The notes below the pieces were generated by a model. That model worked only from the letters and a program-made list of their open reading frames with translations. It did no database searches and was not told where the DNA came from. This document shows, one piece after another, positions 5,169-14,838 of a stretch of DNA of 34,499 nt. Position 1 is the first letter of the stretch. Every line of letters starts with the position of its first letter. Where the stretch lies: assembly GCA_027292925.1 (NCBI GenBank), contig JAPUGI010000261.1, forward strand, positions 1-34,499, read 5' to 3'. The stretch is from Gammaproteobacteria bacterium (GTDB taxonomy: Bacteria > Pseudomonadota > Gammaproteobacteria > Pseudomonadales > Azotimanducaceae). A program made the position numbers and the translations under genes.

Positions 5169-5852
5169 TTGAAAGAATATCGGCAACATCGATTCGAAAG
5201 ACCGCAAGGCGCCACTGAAATCCTGCTGGTCAGGCATGGCGAATCTCAGCCTGCAAATCCGGATAAACCCTTTCCCCTTGTAGATGGTCAGGGCGACCCT
5301 GCCCTGGGGGAAGTCGGTAAAGCACAGGCGATAAGAGTTGGGCAGAGACTGCAACACCTGCCAATCGATTCAGTCTATGTCACCAACTTGCGCCGCACCC
5401 AGGAAACAGCGGCTCCACTATGTGCTCATATCGGTCTCACTCCCACAGTTACAGCAGATCTAAGGGAAGTCCACCTGGGCGATTGGGAAGGTGGAATATT
5501 CCGCATCAAGGCACAGGAGCAGGATCCAGTATTTATGCGAATGCAGCAGGAACAGCGCTGGGATGTCATTCCCGGGGCTGAGTCCCTGCAGCTTTTACAA
5601 GAACGGGTGCAACGAGGTTTGGACCGGATCGCCGCCAGTCATCCTGACCAGTTGATCGTTGCCGTGGTACACGGCGGGGTCATCGGGCATATCATCGCCC
5701 GAGCGACCGGTGCCGCTCCCTTCGCATTTAACGGTGCAAACAATGGTTCCATCAGCCACATAGTGATGCATGCCGGTAACATAATAGTTAGAGGCTTTAA
5801 CGATTCTTGCCATCTAGAGCCCTCAGCGGTTTTTTCTAAAGAGGGTAGCTAA
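5169..5852 (+). CDS. histidine phosphatase family protein (phosphoglycerate-mutase-like)
   Basis: A branch-1 histidine phosphatase: ILLVRHGES carries the catalytic RHG near the N-terminus, LREVHLGDWEGG is the acid-base loop, and VVHGGVIGHI holds the second His. Such enzymes hydrolyse phosphate monoesters or act as mutases; the substrate is not deducible. The ORF track starts at ATG 5139, which has no Shine-Dalgarno. TTG at 5169, with GGGAG eight bases upstream, gives a protein (227 residues) that begins with a polar segment just before the fold, and I favour it. The stop overlaps the next gene's start (TAATG), so it is probably co-transcribed with the carboxypeptidase gene. Confidence 0.85.
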   Translation: MKEYRQHRFERPQGATEILLVRHGESQPANPDKPFPLVDGQGDPALGEVGKAQAIRVGQRLQHLPIDSVYVTNLRRTQETAAPLCAHIGLTPTVTADLREVHLGDWEGGIFRIKAQEQDPVFMRMQQEQRWDVIPGAESLQLLQERVQRGLDRIAASHPDQLIVAVVHGGVIGHIIARATGAAPFAFNGANNGSISHIVMHAGNIIVRGFNDSCHLEPSAVFSKEGS

Positions 5853-7354
5853 TGCCTGCCTATCAGAATTTGTTCAGGCAATTCAAAAAAATCGCAGACC
5901 TGGAGCATGTGCAGTCCATCAGTTTTTGGGATGAGGCTTCGATGATGCCAACTGGCGGCGGGGAAGCTCGAGGTCAGGCAATGGCAACGTTAGGGGTCCT
6001 GATACACGAATTAAAAACAGATTCCAGGATAAAGGACTGGCTGGAGCAGGCTAACGGCGAAGACCTGGATGAGATGCAGACGGCGAATGTTCGGGAAATT
6101 GCGCGGGAACATCGCGAGGCAACCTGCCTGACAGCAGACCTTGTGCATAGATTGAGGCTCGTTTCTTCGGAATGTGAACAGGCCTGGCGGCAGTATCGTG
6201 GTGACAATAATTGGACAGAAATGCAGCCGCTACTGCAAGAAGTTATCGCCCTGGCTCGAGAAGAGGCCGCAATGAGGGCAGCCTCGACCGGAATGTCTTT
6301 GTACGACGCTATGCTGGATGTTCATGAACCGGGGATGACCGTTAAACAACTGGGTAGCCTGTTTACGGAACTCAAATCCTTTCTGCCCGGCTTTATTGAT
6401 GAAGTATTGGAGCATCAAAAACAGCAGCCCGTTATTTCCGTGGGCGACAATTTCCCGGTGGATAAACAAAGGGAATTGGGAATATCAATCATGGGAACGC
6501 TCTGATTCGATTTTGTCCATGGGCGCCTGGACGTGAGTCATCATCCTTTTTGCGGTGGAGTCCCGGATGATGTGCGAATTACCACCCGCTATTTTGATGA
6601 TAATTTTGTGCAGTCCCTGATGGGGGTTATTCATGAGACCGGTCATGCCATGTATGAGCAGGGTCTACCCAGGGAATGGCGTGGTCAACCGGTAGGTACG
6701 GCCCTCAGTGCGGGAACCCATGAAAGCCAGTCATTGTTGATGGAAATGCAGGCCTGTCGTTCCGTTGAATTTATCCAGTTTCTGACACCCATCGCACAGA
6801 AGATATTCCTTGGGCATGAAAGCGTTGATCCGGCCTGGAGTGTTGATAACCTGCACCGGCTGTATACAAAAGTAGAAAAGAGCTACATCCGTGTGGACGC
6901 AGATGAAGTGACTTATCCATTGCACGTGATATTAAGATTCGAAATCGAGAAAGACTTGATTGAGGGTAGTGCGGAAGTCCGGGATCTGCCGGAAATGTGG
7001 AATACAAAAATGCAGCAATACTTGTCGCTGTCAACAACAGGTAACTTCGCAGATGGATGTCTTCAGGATGTACATTGGCCGTCGGCACTGTTTGGTTACT
7101 TCCCCACTTATTCAATCGGTGCAATGACAGCCGCCCAGTTTTTTTCAGCAGCAAAAGCTCAAGTGCCGGAGATCCTGGAGGAAATCCGAAAAGGAAATTT
7201 CGTCCCCCTGTTAAGCTGGTTACGAAAAAATATACACAGCAAAGGAAAGTTTCTGTCTTTCGATGAGTTGTTAACGAGTGCTACCGGTGAGCCGCTGAAC
7301 GTAGAATATTTTAAGCGTCACTTACAGGAAAGATATTTAGGTCCGCTAGGCTAA
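5852..7354 (+). pseudogene. M32 metallocarboxypeptidase (Taq-type), interrupted by one in-frame TGA
   Basis: The two ORFs 5852-6505 and 6533-7354 are in the same frame and are separated by one TGA at 6503-6505. Read through, they give 501 codons, the usual M32 length. The second half holds the zinc site HETGH (about residues 261-265), HESQS with the third ligand Glu near 291, and the M32 signature HPFCGG before it. The context reads MGTL-stop-FDFVHGRLD, where I expect Gly in relatives, so a single GGA-to-TGA change would explain it. The enzyme would remove C-terminal residues in the cytoplasm. A 217-residue N-terminal fragment without the active site is the only product expected without readthrough or a GTG restart at 6533. 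It could be a recent pseudogene, an assembly error or true readthrough. Confidence 0.85.
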
Positions 7355-8449
7355 TTACTTTTCATCGGTCGAAGAAAGGTCTTTTGATTCAAAAACGGCC
7401 TTGCCTGTCGGGCGCTCTGGAGGTTCTTCCTTGACGGGTTCCTTTTCTACCTTACGTGGCACTACCCGGGGAGTGGCATGCTCTATATCTTTGGCACTGA
7501 ATGACGCTTTTCCGGATGAACTGGAATCTCCTTGCCTGGCTTCGAGCTTCTTGCGTATTTCATCCGGTGTCTGAGCAAAATCTCGTTTCTCAGTTCTTGG
7601 TTTCTTCTCAGCAACGGGTCTGGCAGCTACTGAAGGCATAGGTGGGATGGTTGCGCTCAGCTCCCTTGATTCAAAAGTTGAAGCGCCACCAGTGCGCCGT
7701 ACTGTGCTCTCCAGCTTTTTCCTGATGGCATCCGGAGTTTGTGCGAGATCCTTTTTCTGATTCACCTCCTCGGGGTCGGAGGACTTCCTTTTCGATACCT
7801 TGGGCATACTGTCGGACAGATCCCTGGACTCAAACACCGCTTTGCCGCTGACCGCAGCGTTCATCATGTCCTTATCGTCACCGCGTGTCCGGAACCGTAA
7901 AGCAATTACAGCCAGATGTTGTGCGGCGTAAACACTATCCAGGTAGATCTCAACCTTCTCTTCCCCTGATTCCTCCACCTCGGTGATGTTAATTCCGCTG
8001 CGAGTGGCGCCGTCCGCTGCTGGCTTACCACGGAAAAACTGCATAATGGTTTCAAGAAACCCAATGGGTTCCTCAATCGTAACTTCCGTCTGTGCGACAT
8101 CTTCACTTGATGTTGTTTCTGCTTCACGTAGGGATTCTTCAAGCTCTTCTTGTGCGTCGGCAAGGTAGGCAGTAGGTATTTTTGCATCCAGCAATTTCTT
8201 GACCACGATCATCCTGAACGATATTTTTTCTTGTCGCTCAGTGCGGAGTGTGAGGTGGTTCCTGTCACCAATGTTTTCAAGTTCCTGCCAAAGACCCATC
8301 ACAATTTCATTTAAGGCATTTTGTACGTCGGAATCGAGTGAACTATAGGGTTCTCCGGACAGGGACTTACGGATACGTTCAAATTCTGCAAGAAGTTGCT
8401 CTTCAACTTCTTGCAGTGCGCTTTCCAGTTTGTCCAGTAGGTCACTCAT
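7355..8449 (-). CDS. unknown protein with repeated motifs in a disordered tail
   Basis: A 364-residue soluble acidic protein I cannot assign to a family. Residues 1-115 are helical and charged (probable coiled coil). Residues 125-145 include an amphipathic FLETIMQFFRG stretch. Residues 165-190 look folded (VEIYLDSVYAAQHLAVIALRF). From 200 to the end the chain is low-complexity, Lys/Glu/Ser/Pro-rich and apparently disordered, yet it carries four copies of GKAVFESKDLS-like motifs (about residues 202, 255, 313 and 349) and two near-identical AQTPDxIRKKLE segments (236 and 292). The repeats look like short binding motifs for a partner. It lies downstream of the CBS gene on the same strand, and abuts the convergent carboxypeptidase gene. 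There is no obvious Shine-Dalgarno before the ATG. Confidence 0.8.
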   Translation of the reverse strand: MSDLLDKLESALQEVEEQLLAEFERIRKSLSGEPYSSLDSDVQNALNEIVMGLWQELENIGDRNHLTLRTERQEKISFRMIVVKKLLDAKIPTAYLADAQEELEESLREAETTSSEDVAQTEVTIEEPIGFLETIMQFFRGKPAADGATRSGINITEVEESGEEKVEIYLDSVYAAQHLAVIALRFRTRGDDKDMMNAAVSGKAVFESRDLSDSMPKVSKRKSSDPEEVNQKKDLAQTPDAIRKKLESTVRRTGGASTFESRELSATIPPMPSVAARPVAEKKPRTEKRDFAQTPDEIRKKLEARQGDSSSSGKASFSAKDIEHATPRVVPRKVEKEPVKEEPPERPTGKAVFESKDLSSTDEK

Positions 8450-8536: not shown

Positions 8537-8965
8537 TCAGCTTTTCAGGTCACTTGCGTGATTTTCCTCTGCAAACTCGGTTACAGCTTTTAATATCTGG
8601 CGGCAGGTTAATTGACCTTGAAGCTCCCCATCTTTCACAACAGGTCTTCTGCGATGTTTGTGATCTAGCATGGAGGTAGCCACTGCAAGTATCTCATCTT
8701 CGGGGCTATTCACTTCAACGTTGGCAGTCATTATATCACTCACTAACGCTCCACCCGGGTCCGCACCGTTATAAACGCTGGTTACCATTGCTTGAAGACA
8801 ATCCAGCTCCGAAAGCATACCGACCAGCTTACCGTTCTCATCGGTCACCATCGCCCCTGACACCTGGTTAGCAAGAATTTCATGGGCCGCCTCATACACA
8901 TTCATATCCGGACGAACAGCAACTGGATTGTCCACCATATACTCGGAAATGCTGGTTTTAGTCAT
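8537..8965 (-). CDS. CBS-domain pair protein
   Basis: A 142-residue stand-alone protein made of two CBS domains: residues ~8-60 (MVDNPVAVRPDMNVYEAAHEIL, then GAMVTDENGKLVGMLSE) and ~78-135 (IMTANVEVNSPEDEILAVATSML, then RRRPVVKDGELQGQLTCRQIL). CBS pairs bind adenine nucleotides or similar ligands and act as energy sensors or regulatory modules. The ATG has AGGAT at a suitable distance. It is downstream of the TrmB-like gene (69-base gap) and upstream of the repeat protein (87-base gap), all on the minus strand. A partnership with the repeat protein is my inference from position only. Confidence 0.88.
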   Translation of the reverse strand: MTKTSISEYMVDNPVAVRPDMNVYEAAHEILANQVSGAMVTDENGKLVGMLSELDCLQAMVTSVYNGADPGGALVSDIMTANVEVNSPEDEILAVATSMLDHKHRRRPVVKDGELQGQLTCRQILKAVTEFAEENHASDLKS

Positions 8966-9034: not shown

Positions 9035-9781
9035 TCACAGGCGCTGCCACAAAGTATCAAAAGAAATCTGCATAACGAGTGCGATCGCGTCAGAGTTCAG
9101 CAGGACCGCGGTTGGGTAGTCTCCCTGGACCAGGGAAATCATGACACATTTCGGGGGGTAGATCGCGACGTAGCTGGCTGCATGATCACTGGCTTCTGTC
9201 TCTATCCACTTGCGTTCTGCAAGCGGGGCATCTTCACCGCCATCGCCAATCGCAATAACATTGACAGAGATCCCTTTGCGTACCCGTTGTCGGGTGAAGT
9301 TAGGGAATGGCCGATATAAATATTTACGAATTTGTTTGGAAGAATAGACCCGGTACCGCTTTTGCGCTTGAGTCTCAACTGTCTTGAGAATGTCCTTTAG
9401 GACAAACTCAATGCCCTCGTCTCCCTCGTAGTGATGTACATTGATGGTGCTCGAGTCGGGTTTGATGTTATTGAGGTCTGGCAGGATGTCGTGGCGTAAT
9501 ACATCGGTTGCCCTCGCCAGGATATCTTGTTTCTCCTCGGCAATTTTCACAAGTTGATCCGGTGGTTCGGCGCAGAAAAACTTTCGTTTACCCTTTGGGA
9601 AGTAGCTCACCAGCGAACGGGTCCGCAGGGTCTTCAGTTCCTCGTAGGTTGTACCGCGATTAAGGCCCGCACCGGTAGCGATGTCTCGAATGGAACCCGG
9701 GCCTTGTTTTAGTAACGTCAGATAGATGTCAGTCTGCCGGTCAGAGAGTCCAATCTGTTTTAAGGTTTCGTGTATTATCAT
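9035..9781 (-). CDS. TrmB-like transcriptional regulator
   Basis: A 248-residue regulator with an N-terminal winged helix of the TrmB type: a helical start (LKQIGLSDRQTDIYLTLL), then DIATGAGLNRGTTYEELKTL as the recognition region and a wing (KGKRKFFCAEPPDQL). A short coiled coil leads to a C-terminal effector-like domain of about 140 residues. TrmB proteins often sense sugars. It is transcribed away from the GlmS-like gene across a 110-base region holding two identical dyads, so it very likely controls itself and that operon. The sugar-phosphate ligand suggested by the target is inference. Confidence 0.82.
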   Translation of the reverse strand: MIIHETLKQIGLSDRQTDIYLTLLKQGPGSIRDIATGAGLNRGTTYEELKTLRTRSLVSYFPKGKRKFFCAEPPDQLVKIAEEKQDILARATDVLRHDILPDLNNIKPDSSTINVHHYEGDEGIEFVLKDILKTVETQAQKRYRVYSSKQIRKYLYRPFPNFTRQRVRKGISVNVIAIGDGGEDAPLAERKWIETEASDHAASYVAIYPPKCVMISLVQGDYPTAVLLNSDAIALVMQISFDTLWQRL

Positions 9782-9891: not shown

Positions 9892-11643
9892 ATGTGTGGA
9901 ATTGTTGCTTGTGCGGGTGAGGATGTAGGTGATCTGGCGGTTGCTGGATTGCAACGGCTCCAATATCGGGGTTATGACAGCTATGGATTTGCCTGGGTCA
10001 ATGAAGAAAAAGGCGTAATACAGACAAGGAAGAGTGTCGACTCGCTGGATGACCTGCAGGATCAGCTGCCTCGTTGTAACGCGGTGTTGGGGCATACGCG
10101 CTGGGCAACCCATGGAGGAGTCAGTGTAGAAAACTGTCATCCACATTCTGCACGCAACCTGGAGTTTTCCCTGGTACACAACGGCATCGTGGAAAATTAC
10201 CAGACCTTGAAAGAAACAATCGTAACCCCGGCATACGTAAGTGATACCGATACAGAGGTCATTGTACGGCTATTGGAGATTGCCCTGAAAACGGCCTGTT
10301 CCCGTCCCGAGGCGTTGCGCGATGTGCTTAACAGGCTTGATGGCAGGAATACAATCGTAGTGCTGTTTTCAGATGGTGAGATGCTGGGCGTTCGTGAAGG
10401 TTCCCCGCTAATGCTCGGCAAGGCTAGCAACCAGTATTTCCTCGGTTCCGACGTCTTCAGTTTTGCCAGGACTACAACCGTTTGTTGTCCTGTTGCGCAG
10501 CGGCACATAGTTAGAATCAAGGATCAGCGAGTTGAAATGTTCGATGAAACCGGTGAGCCGTGTGAAATTGAATGGGTCCTGGCAGAGTTGCCTGAAACTG
10601 ATGTTGGCAGAGACGGTTATCCGCACTACATGCTGAAGGAAATTATGGAGCAGTGGCAAACCGTTTCGAGGCAAGGAATGTTGGCTGGAACCGATCTGGA
10701 TAACTTCGTCCAGGAATTAAAACATTGCGGGAATCTGCTGGTAACCGGGGCGGGTGGTGCCTATTTCGCCTGCGTGCAGATCGCCTGGCTGCTTCGCGAA
10801 CTGGCAGGATTCAGGGTTCTTGCAGTACCAGCTTACGAAATCGATTCCATGAAGCCGTTGTATAAGCCAGGCGACTTCCTGTTGGCTATCAGCCAAAGCG
10901 GTGAGACTGCCGATACGATTCAGGCCATCGAAACCGCGACGGCATGGGGTATGCGGGTGGCGTCCCTGGTCAATATGCCCATGTCGACGCTGGCTTTTTT
11001 ATCGGAATTCAGTTTCGCCAATCATAGTGGTCCGGAAATTTGCGTCCTTTCCACTAAATCGGCAACAGCACAGGTAACTTTTGGCTATCTGCTAGCAAAA
11101 TCGTTGGCTGGTCAGAACGATACAGGGGAACATATTGATAAGTTGAGCAGTGCCCTCAGCCGGTATCTAACAGATACGACGTCAAGAGAATTGCAAGAAT
11201 TGGCAGCCAGTCTTTTGCCAACTCACAATCTGTTTATTCTTGGCAGAGGGCTTTTTTACGGAAGCGCATTGATGGCAGCACTCAACATCAAGGAAGCAAG
11301 TTATTTTCATGCGGAAGCCTTCGCCGCGGGGGAATTGAAGCATGGTGTTATCGCGCTGATCGAAGAGGGTGTTCCGGTGATCTTGTTCGTCGACAAAGAC
11401 GATTCCTATATGCTAAATGTCGCGTCAGAAGTAAAGTCACGTGGCGCCCGGGTCATCGGCATCGCTTATGAAAACAACGAGCTTTTTGATGATTTTATCT
11501 GCATGCCGACGCTTTCGGACCCATTGCTTGCGACGGTTTGCGGGATGGTTCCCTGCCAGCTTATTGCCTATCACCTTGGCGTTCATGCTGGGATCAATCC
11601 GGACAAACCCCGAAATCTCGCGAAGAGTGTGACAGTGCAATAA
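9892..11643 (+). CDS. GlmS-like glutamine:sugar-phosphate aminotransferase (isomerising), divergent
   Basis: A 583-residue protein with the full glutamine--fructose-6-phosphate aminotransferase layout. The glutaminase domain starts at Cys2 (MCGIVAC) and contains HTRWATHG and HNGIVENY. Two SIS domains follow, with SQSGETADT, STKSATAQ, AGELKHG and the C-terminal NLAKSVTVQ, whose Lys matches the substrate-linked Lys of E. coli GlmS. Differences: it is shorter than the usual ~609 residues, and the phosphate-binding CGTS loop reads GAGGAY. The product is probably glucosamine-6-phosphate or a related amino sugar. Control by the divergent TrmB-like regulator, and the HEAT/PhyH genes behind it, suggest a specialised role rather than the housekeeping glmS. 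Confidence 0.85.
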   Translation: MCGIVACAGEDVGDLAVAGLQRLQYRGYDSYGFAWVNEEKGVIQTRKSVDSLDDLQDQLPRCNAVLGHTRWATHGGVSVENCHPHSARNLEFSLVHNGIVENYQTLKETIVTPAYVSDTDTEVIVRLLEIALKTACSRPEALRDVLNRLDGRNTIVVLFSDGEMLGVREGSPLMLGKASNQYFLGSDVFSFARTTTVCCPVAQRHIVRIKDQRVEMFDETGEPCEIEWVLAELPETDVGRDGYPHYMLKEIMEQWQTVSRQGMLAGTDLDNFVQELKHCGNLLVTGAGGAYFACVQIAWLLRELAGFRVLAVPAYEIDSMKPLYKPGDFLLAISQSGETADTIQAIETATAWGMRVASLVNMPMSTLAFLSEFSFANHSGPEICVLSTKSATAQVTFGYLLAKSLAGQNDTGEHIDKLSSALSRYLTDTTSRELQELAASLLPTHNLFILGRGLFYGSALMAALNIKEASYFHAEAFAAGELKHGVIALIEEGVPVILFVDKDDSYMLNVASEVKSRGARVIGIAYENNELFDDFICMPTLSDPLLATVCGMVPCQLIAYHLGVHAGINPDKPRNLAKSVTVQ

Positions 11644-13101: not shown

Positions 13102-13257
13102 TTCGGCTTGGTGTGAACGAAATCGGTGATCGCGCAAGTGATCTATTTGATCTTTCCAGGCCATTTATTGATTTCGTATCGCTTGAAGCAAGGGTTTGAG
13201 CTCATTGAGTTTTCAACGGTTTTGAGTATAGTAGATTTGAGATTTGAGGACTCGCCC

Positions 13258-14838
13258 TTGTTCGGATATCCCCTGAAATCCAGATACCTTTCCACCATTG
13301 TCAAACTGTTGGTGTGGATATCTTTTCTTTCGTTTTCGCTTTTTTCCTTAACCCTGAATTCTGCAGTGGCGGAGTTGCGTGAGTCATTGTTAAACAGGAG
13401 CATCATCACCGTAAACGCATACCGGGGGAAAAACATAAAAAATCACGGTACCGGATTTATAGTGCAGTCGGATCGATTTAACGGCTATGTGATAACAAAT
13501 TCACATTTTCTCGACGGAAGTGATACGACCACTGTAAATGTTCCCAATTCAGGGGCGGAATTAGTAGCCCAGATACTTCGAAATGAACCGTCTTATGATT
13601 TTGCACTTCTTAAGGTGAATGGCCTAAATCTGCCACCGCTTGAATTTAGTCGAAATCTACCGCAGGTGGGAGAGGTCGTCTGGTCGGCTGTTAAGTGGCA
13701 AGGTGACAACACCTCGGTTGGGCTTGCGCGAGGAATACTGCGTAGCAGTTACGAGATGGCGGCATCTGAAATTGTATTGTTCAGTCACTCGGCCATGCTG
13801 GGAGAAGGGAGTTTTGGGTCGGTCTTATTAAATGAGTGTGGCCATGTAATTGGTCTAAATATGGCCACGCCCGGTTTAGATGCCAGCGTTCGGGCCGTAA
13901 ATGTGGCATCACTGCGATCAGTACTGCTGTCGCAAAACATCAAAATCACGTTTGCCGATGGAGGGTGCATCTCCGAAGTAACCCTGGCGAAAAATATGGC
14001 GGACCTGGCAGCAGTCGAAGCCAGAAAAGCACGGGAGGAGGCAACCAAGGCACAGGTTCTGGCAACCTCACTTGAAAAGAAGTTACAAAAGTCCGACCGG
14101 CGTAGTGATTCACTGCTGAGACAGACTCGTGCAGCAAGAGAAAAAGCTGATGCAGCCTTGCTCGCTGCAGAAATTGCGCAGAAAAATGCAGATGTAAACA
14201 GGATCGAGCTGGCAAGGAAAACCGCCAGCCTGGAAGCAGAAGCACTGGCCATGAAGGAGAGCTATGAAAAAGGTCAGGTTGAATCAGAGCAGCGGTTTAA
14301 AGAGGGGCTGAAAGAACAGCAAAGAGAAGCAATTTTCAGGGAATACATACTGATAGGGACGTCGCTGGTGCTGCTCATCGGTATGGTGGTTGTCTTTTTG
14401 GTTATGCGCCGGCGCGGCAAGTCAACGCCGGACCTGGCCGAAGCATCACCCATTCCTTTGGGCCAGGAGCTGGAGGTAAAAAACGATACGGAACATCACC
14501 ACGAGGAGCTGACTGAGTTTGTGCTTGATGGCCGGGATGATGAGGGGATCCGCTATCTTCTGCGCATATCGGGTGATCAGCTACTTAACGAGGACGGCGT
14601 GATCATTGGCCGCAATCCCAAGGATTCTCCCTACATCATCAATCATGCCGATGTATCCAGAAAGCATGCCCGAATGCGAGTCATGAAGAACCGGGTCTTT
14701 ATCGAAGATCTCGGGTCAACTAATGGCACTTCGGTAAATGGTCAATCGATCGACGAAAAGGGGCCGGTTTCCATCGACAGTGGTGACCAGATAATCATAG
14801 GTTCAGTGGTGATGAATCTCCGCGTTTTGTCAGCCTAA
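13258..14838 (+). CDS. trypsin-like protease domain - coiled coil - TM - FHA protein
   Basis: Numbers are from the ORF-track start at 13126. The real start is probably TTG 13258 (residue 45), with AGGA seven bases upstream; 526 residues. The N-terminal hydrophobic segment (60-80) is a signal or anchor. The protease-like domain (~90-270) has the triad candidates His127 (ITNSHFL), Asp158 (YDFALLKV) and Ser229 (GEGSFGSVLL); the usual SGGP is changed to SFGS. An Ala/Lys/Glu-rich coiled coil covers ~285-405, a membrane span ~407-427, and an FHA domain ~475-570 with IGRNP, VSRKHARM and DLGSTNGTSVNG. This places the protease in the periplasm and the phosphothreonine-binding FHA in the cytoplasm, as if linking envelope state to kinase signalling. 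No kinase is in the window. Confidence 0.85.
   Translation: MFGYPLKSRYLSTIVKLLVWISFLSFSLFSLTLNSAVAELRESLLNRSIITVNAYRGKNIKNHGTGFIVQSDRFNGYVITNSHFLDGSDTTTVNVPNSGAELVAQILRNEPSYDFALLKVNGLNLPPLEFSRNLPQVGEVVWSAVKWQGDNTSVGLARGILRSSYEMAASEIVLFSHSAMLGEGSFGSVLLNECGHVIGLNMATPGLDASVRAVNVASLRSVLLSQNIKITFADGGCISEVTLAKNMADLAAVEARKAREEATKAQVLATSLEKKLQKSDRRSDSLLRQTRAAREKADAALLAAEIAQKNADVNRIELARKTASLEAEALAMKESYEKGQVESEQRFKEGLKEQQREAIFREYILIGTSLVLLIGMVVVFLVMRRRGKSTPDLAEASPIPLGQELEVKNDTEHHHEELTEFVLDGRDDEGIRYLLRISGDQLLNEDGVIIGRNPKDSPYIINHADVSRKHARMRVMKNRVFIEDLGSTNGTSVNGQSIDEKGPVSIDSGDQIIIGSVVMNLRVLSA

Follow-up and report, generated by a model that had tools for sequence, protein, structure and literature searches.

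The TrmB-CBS-FES Gene Cluster

The window, i.e., the whole analyzed stretch of 34,499 nucleotides, contains a cluster of three genes located on the minus strand and separated by gaps of 69 and 87 bp. The first gene (9035–9781) encodes a TrmB-like transcriptional regulator of 248 aa (PF01978, E 1.2e-10). It is followed by a gene for a stand-alone two-CBS protein of 142 aa (8537–8965; PF00571, E 1.4e-21), which keeps the G-x-L-S-x-x-D nucleotide-site motif in CBS1 (GMLSELD). Downstream of the CBS gene lies an open reading frame (7355–8449) for a motif-array protein of 364 aa plus a stop codon, hereafter the FES protein, whose architecture is the same in 12 homologues.

Several other genes should be mentioned. 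The M32 carboxypeptidase gene (5852–7354, plus strand) is interrupted by an in-frame TGA codon at 6503–6505, with both halves in the same frame, and in its relatives (L025, L026, L030, L032, L033) the frame runs without a break through about 500 codons; the TGA could be a sequence error of the metagenome-assembled genome (MAG) or a real nonsense mutation. A GlmS-like glutamine amidotransferase/SIS protein is encoded at 9892–11643 (plus strand), divergently from the TrmB-like regulator, which may regulate sugar-phosphate genes in the window. The gene at 13126–14838 (plus strand), whose synteny is kept in relatives, encodes a protein with an FHA domain at its C-terminus; its other parts are a trypsin-like peptidase domain, a coiled region and a probable membrane segment. 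The window's own genome also carries a paralogous stand-alone CBS gene (L134:2467–2895, G000:C304; also L130–L133) beside a gene for a proton-antiporter-type subunit (PF00361), with similar gene layouts in relatives. Promoter and terminator scans of the window gave nothing usefully above background, and no RNA family matched within it.

Structure of the FES Protein

The FES protein is composed of a predicted N-terminal helical bundle (residues 1–117, positions 8099–8449), a variable middle region (residues 118–201, 7847–8098) with a pairwise identity of about 0.19, and a tail rich in S, K, E, A and P that carries two kinds of short elements, all encoded on the minus strand. We designated as F the motif GxAxF-x-[SA]-[KR]-[DE]-[LI] and as H the AQTPDxIRKKLE helix. 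The four F motifs are GKAVFESRDLS (residues 202–212, 7814–7846; F at residue 206), GASTFESRELS (255–265, 7655–7687; F at 259), GKASFSAKDIE (313–323, 7481–7513; F at 317) and the C-terminal GKAVFESKDLS (349–359, 7373–7405; F at 353). Two H segments, H1 (AQTPDAIRKKLE, residues 236–247, 7709–7744) and H2 (AQTPDEIRKKLE, residues 292–303, 7541–7576), precede the second and third F motifs, whose F lies 21 and 23 residues past the T of H1 and H2, respectively.

The original prediction had described four FES copies at residues 202, 255, 313 and 349, alternating with two AQTPDxIRKKLE segments 56 residues apart. All four starts are exact in the 364-aa frame, in which positions 7358–7846 of the minus strand correspond to residues 202–364, and the H segments do start at 236 and 292. 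Two details have to be amended: the third copy, GKASFSAKDIE, is no plain FES motif and represents a conserved KDIE subtype of the penultimate slot, and the two kinds of elements form one module of fixed spacing (see below).

None of 20,000 shuffles of the tail contained four F motifs (the maximum was one) or two H motifs. Both regular expressions were written post hoc, with the motifs already seen, and a pattern-free test therefore carries more weight: the best self-similarity of 11-mers within the tail was 50, as compared with a mean of 24 and a maximum of 37 in 300 shuffles.

In the AlphaFold2 model, built from a 13-sequence alignment, the bundle comprises helices 2–28, 40–60, 71–88 and 94–119; its mean pLDDT was 79 when it was modelled alone and mostly 74–91 by block within the whole-protein model. 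The middle region is mostly of low confidence, with a few short helices. The tail had been predicted to be disordered, and pLDDT is indeed below 50 over most of it, the exceptions being helices 239–252 and 295–307, which coincide with the two H segments.

Database Searches

The claim that no known family has such an arrangement was borne out by all searches. For the FES protein there was no Pfam or NCBIfam family above the cut-off, no PHROG match better than E 0.065, nothing usable in a PADLOC scan and nothing in a PDB sequence search (best E 0.52); Foldseek gave no match at E ≤ 0.001 for either the complete model or the bundle alone, and the bundle had no significant structural match in PDB or BFVD. 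FES relatives were not found in viral contigs and plasmids, nor did we find a description of the family in the literature.

A few subthreshold similarities were rejected. Thump_like (PF18096) scored 18.5 bits with the window protein, against a curated cut-off of 26, and covered 21 of 78 positions; the similarity is confined to one helix, which looks like the H motif (in one homologue, E reached 1.5e-4), and was attributed to chance resemblance of helical sequences. A PD-T4-6 match across a helical stretch (E 0.0045) and one-off family matches in single homologues were likewise taken as chance. BAG-like three-helix matches reached a probability of 0.98 (E about 0.3) and were considered generic.

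Homologues, Array Organization and Selection

Scanning of genome contigs with the window protein alone gave nothing, and with an alignment as query it revealed FES homologues at 13 loci, in MAGs whose titles read Gammaproteobacteria, Proteobacteria, Pseudomonadales, OM182 or K189A clade. Among close genomes, 12 of 147 had a homologue; with a module profile, about 15 of 201 genomes of one GTDB family were recognized as carriers. All members of the FES family come from MAGs of gammaproteobacteria that are uncultured and mostly marine, and the homologues are 33–64% identical to the window protein. It should be mentioned that at one locus (L031:1–1152, genome G023) the FES homologue is distributed over two frames that overlap and is cut by the contig end, with no adjacent CBS or TrmB gene.

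In the 13 proteins the array can be written as F-(H-F)1-3-F..., with an F motif first, one to three H-F pairs and an F motif last. In total, they contain 4–6 F and 1–3 H elements, several homologues having five or six F motifs. As predicted for the final copy, a motif lies close to the C-terminus in all 13 homologues: the last F is 8–14 residues from the end in 12 of them, and the thirteenth (L076) has a C-terminal extension, trimmed for the alignment. An F motif follows every H segment at 21.3 ± 1.0 residues (n = 28; range 20–24). In contrast, F-to-H and F-to-F distances vary more widely (26.9 ± 6.3 residues, range 18–43, and 35.2 ± 4.9 residues, range 25–44, respectively). Since the H-to-F spacing is rigid while the other gaps vary, we consider H and F to be parts of one bipartite module.

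The slots of the array keep their identity across species, with a mean BLOSUM score of 41 for motifs of the same slot versus 29 for different slots; the penultimate slot has a G[KR]AxFxxKDIE-like and the last slot a GKAVFESKDLS-like consensus.

Conservation of the short motifs amid variable linkers, claimed at the outset from a single protein, was confirmed by comparison of the regions: pairwise identity is 0.54–0.63 in the motifs, 0.41 in the bundle and 0.17 in the linkers. Against the two nearest homologues, pN was 0.07 and 0.12 in the motifs, 0.18–0.22 in the bundle and 0.32–0.43 in the linkers, and pS (0.67–0.87) was alike in all regions. Thus, at equal synonymous divergence amino-acid changes are about four-fold rarer in the motifs than in the linkers. 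The value of pN was below pS in every region, and as synonymous sites are near saturation, pN/pS can be read only as a comparison of one region with another. Across the 13 proteins the motif copies proved to be conserved, the opposite of what the original prediction had named as grounds for its rejection. As judged from these sequence comparisons, the motif conservation in the FES family is real.

Co-occurrence With CBS and TrmB Genes

In most carriers the same TrmB-CBS-FES order is flanked by a GlmS-like/HEAT-like/PhyH block and a His-phosphatase/M32 peptidase block. A CBS gene is present at the locus in 11 of 15 FES carriers (Fisher p 1e-11 over 201 family genomes, with shared ancestry ignored) and a TrmB gene adjoins FES in 10 of 15 (Fisher p 1e-10 over the same genomes, again with shared ancestry ignored). 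At three loci the CBS stop codon and the FES start codon overlap: the overlap is 4 bp in L139 and L142 and, going by the annotation, 1 bp in L028.

The association is not strict in either direction. G003 has a contiguous TrmB-FES locus in which the intervening gap encodes no CBS protein, and no CBS homologue at E ≤ 1e-10 was found in this MAG (91% complete); three H-F modules, with five F motifs in all, are nevertheless retained in its FES protein. G041 has no CBS gene at the FES locus, and in three genomes (G037, G048 and G170) CBS and FES genes occur without TrmB. Conversely, five genomes (G028, G090, G174, G055 and G181) have the CBS gene at the locus and no motif gene, and at least three have TrmB alone. 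These data rule out the CBS protein as an obligate partner; a frequent co-component or a regulator would be the better interpretation. The suggested check of whether the CBS protein co-occurs with the motif protein thus had a divided outcome, with presence in most carriers and absence from G003 (at E ≤ 1e-10) and from the G041 locus. As carriers exist both without CBS and without TrmB, the partner of the modules is unlikely to be either neighbour exclusively.

H-F-Like Modules Outside the FES Family

When 392 genomes of the order were searched with the module profile, very small proteins of one further family, f29, were matched (E 1.6e-6, 3.8e-5 and 2.7e-4). They are unannotated proteins of 52–108 aa without the N-terminal helical bundle and have a single IRxKLxxYxxxxGxAxF core (L147–L149, L157–L166, L182–L196), in which the H core with its IRRKL helix is followed by GxAxF about 20 residues past the start of H. 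Conservation does not extend to the [KR][DE][LI]S half of F, where these proteins have FGSAEL, FGAARI or FGGAQL. In a single profile-profile comparison, the f29 small proteins matched the FES module with a probability of 96% (E 1e-9).

A profile seeded with f29 sequences found one to three small module proteins per genome in 13 f29 genomes, although the scores within f29 are not independent evidence, as the profile was partly built from the same sequences; outside f1 and f29 it gave essentially nothing (one weak match). A class-wide module search yielded a single fragmentary match. About three paralogous types can be distinguished among the f29 proteins, and their loci (DegP/Bfd/bacterioferritin, DnaJ-like and methyltransferase) are unrelated to each other. 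In one example, MKLSFFSRFSRKK...TPEDIRRKLENYQKREGPANFGSAELY, the gene is located between genes for a DegP-like protease and Bfd/bacterioferritin; the DegP neighbour is confined to this one of the three types. No adjacent CBS gene was seen in the f29 stretches read. Common descent of the f29 modules and the FES array and convergence are both possible on the basis of these similarities.

One more occurrence was found in G002, which has no FES protein. Here (L034:6596–7421) an F-H-F stretch ends at an in-frame TGA, and the same frame beyond it encodes a Tle1-like (PF09994) hydrolase of the phospholipase-effector type, cut by the contig end. Possibly, this is a fusion interrupted by a stop codon.

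Discussion

In the FES protein, a head predicted to fold is joined to a tail predicted to be disordered; the bipartite motifs repeated along the tail are rigidly spaced within modules and flexibly spaced between them, and one peptide is terminal. On these grounds we propose that it is a multivalent docking scaffold, a reading to which we assign a probability of roughly 0.55. Docking, multivalency, a common receptor and the roles of the CBS and TrmB proteins are inferred. The N-terminal bundle would anchor or oligomerize the protein, and the disordered tail would display the docking peptides as the ordered array. The TPxxIRRKL segment of each H-F module may fold into a helix on the surface of a partner, and the GxAxF[ES][KR]D[LI] peptide about 21 residues past the start of H may anchor that partner chain or an adjacent one; at the free C-terminus, the last F peptide would provide a final binding site. 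One FES chain could thereby gather several copies of a receptor, which is probably a protein common to all carriers and not the adjacent CBS or TrmB protein. The CBS protein, adenylate-sensor-like and often co-expressed, would probably modulate the scaffold, and TrmB would regulate the cluster.

The occurrence of single modules in bundle-less proteins (f29; L034) argues for a separable docking unit, and the variable valency is expected of a multivalent binder. The narrow distribution, with carriers making up about 15 of the 201 family genomes, is odd for a core-hub scaffold and counts against this reading, and the distinct slot identities could reflect different partners or an intramolecular role.

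To our knowledge, few bacterial multivalent scaffolds are built from short motifs, CsoS2, CcmM and similar proteins being among them. The FES protein resembles such motif scaffolds in having repeated short motifs under stronger selection than the linkers, as seen in the pN comparison. Some docking peptides, such as the FtsZ C-terminal peptide and the SSB C-terminal tail, are single and terminate a variable disordered linker. FES likewise has a conserved short peptide at the end of such a linker but differs in having four to six peptides, most internal ones preceded by a paired helix. The f29 small proteins share with it the IRRKL helix and GxAxF and differ by having one module, no bundle and no KDLS half.

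CsoS2, the scaffold of the alpha-carboxysome, is disordered and contains short conserved repeats, and its helical repeats bind an enzyme multivalently (Turnsek et al., 2024, PMC11365436). The FES tail is also disordered, with repeated conserved motifs amid variable sequence, but FES starts with a folded bundle and its motif (GxAxFESKDLS) is different. CsoS2 models were absent from the Pfam matches at E ≤ 1 for the window protein and at E ≤ 0.1 for the 13 homologues. Shell proteins of bacterial microcompartments (PF00936) were found in none of nine carrier genomes, while the E. coli and Synechococcus elongatus controls were positive, and a carboxysome or microcompartment role was rejected on this basis. 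FES would work like CsoS2-type scaffolds without being one of them, as an undescribed family with a new motif.

Other explanations have to be weighed against the docking scaffold. The array might bind its own N-terminal bundle in cis or in trans, forming a homotypic network, a condensate or an autoinhibited form. Every complete copy has the bundle as its sole other element, a peptide groove could be made up of conserved bundle residues, and persistence in the absence of CBS or TrmB would be understandable if the system were self-contained. However, sequence change is faster in the bundle than in the motifs (identity 0.41 versus 0.54–0.63), the low AlphaFold2 confidence of the motifs gives no supported placement on the bundle, and small module-bearing proteins lack a bundle altogether. 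We regard self-binding as rather unlikely.

Docking onto the neighbouring CBS protein, implied by the original prediction, fares poorly and we regard it as distinctly unlikely. It supposes that the tail clusters CBS dimers and that adenylate binding switches the assembly. The frequent adjacency (11 of 15 carriers, Fisher 1e-11), the stop/start overlaps in L028, L139 and L142, suggesting coupled translation and often a complex, and the nucleotide-site motif of CBS1 speak in its favour. But G003 keeps its array with no CBS homologue at E ≤ 1e-10, the G041 locus is devoid of CBS, five genomes have CBS at the locus without the motif gene, and in the f29 stretches read, sequences resembling the module have no CBS gene beside them; moreover, inspection by eye revealed no obvious CBS sites that separate genomes with and without the motif gene.

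Processing or degradation signals, i.e., repeated recognition sites for a protease or adaptor, would account for short repeated motifs near a free C-terminus and for single f29 modules on very small proteins, some of them beside a DegP-like protease gene. Since one signal would suffice, four to six slot-specific copies with a fixed helix spacing make this very improbable, and the DegP neighbour is limited to one of three paralogous types. Non-functional low-complexity expansion, suggested by the composition of the tail and its varying copy number, can practically be dismissed in view of the strong purifying selection on the motifs and of slot identities kept across proteins with 33–64% identity. 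We also dropped the idea that the conserved T in TPEEIRRKL is a phosphothreonine read by the FHA protein (13126–14838), because S and T substitute freely for one another and T/S-P-E-E is known as a classic helix cap.

The docking scaffold can be extended to a broader, speculative picture that we hold to be improbable as a whole. The H-F module might be an order-wide docking signal read by one conserved hub, used mostly in single copy by very small adaptors (one to three of them in each f29 genome) and perhaps attached to a Tle1-like hydrolase in one genome; FES would then be the poly-module version, clustering the hub under adenylate (CBS) and TrmB control.

The case of the CBS protein cautions that gene order alone is no ground for naming a neighbour as the partner. 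FES represents an undescribed family built on a helix-plus-peptide module of fixed spacing, and its array is made up of slots that each conserve a sequence of their own. If the f29 proteins use the same signal, the hub that reads it would be common to unrelated loci.
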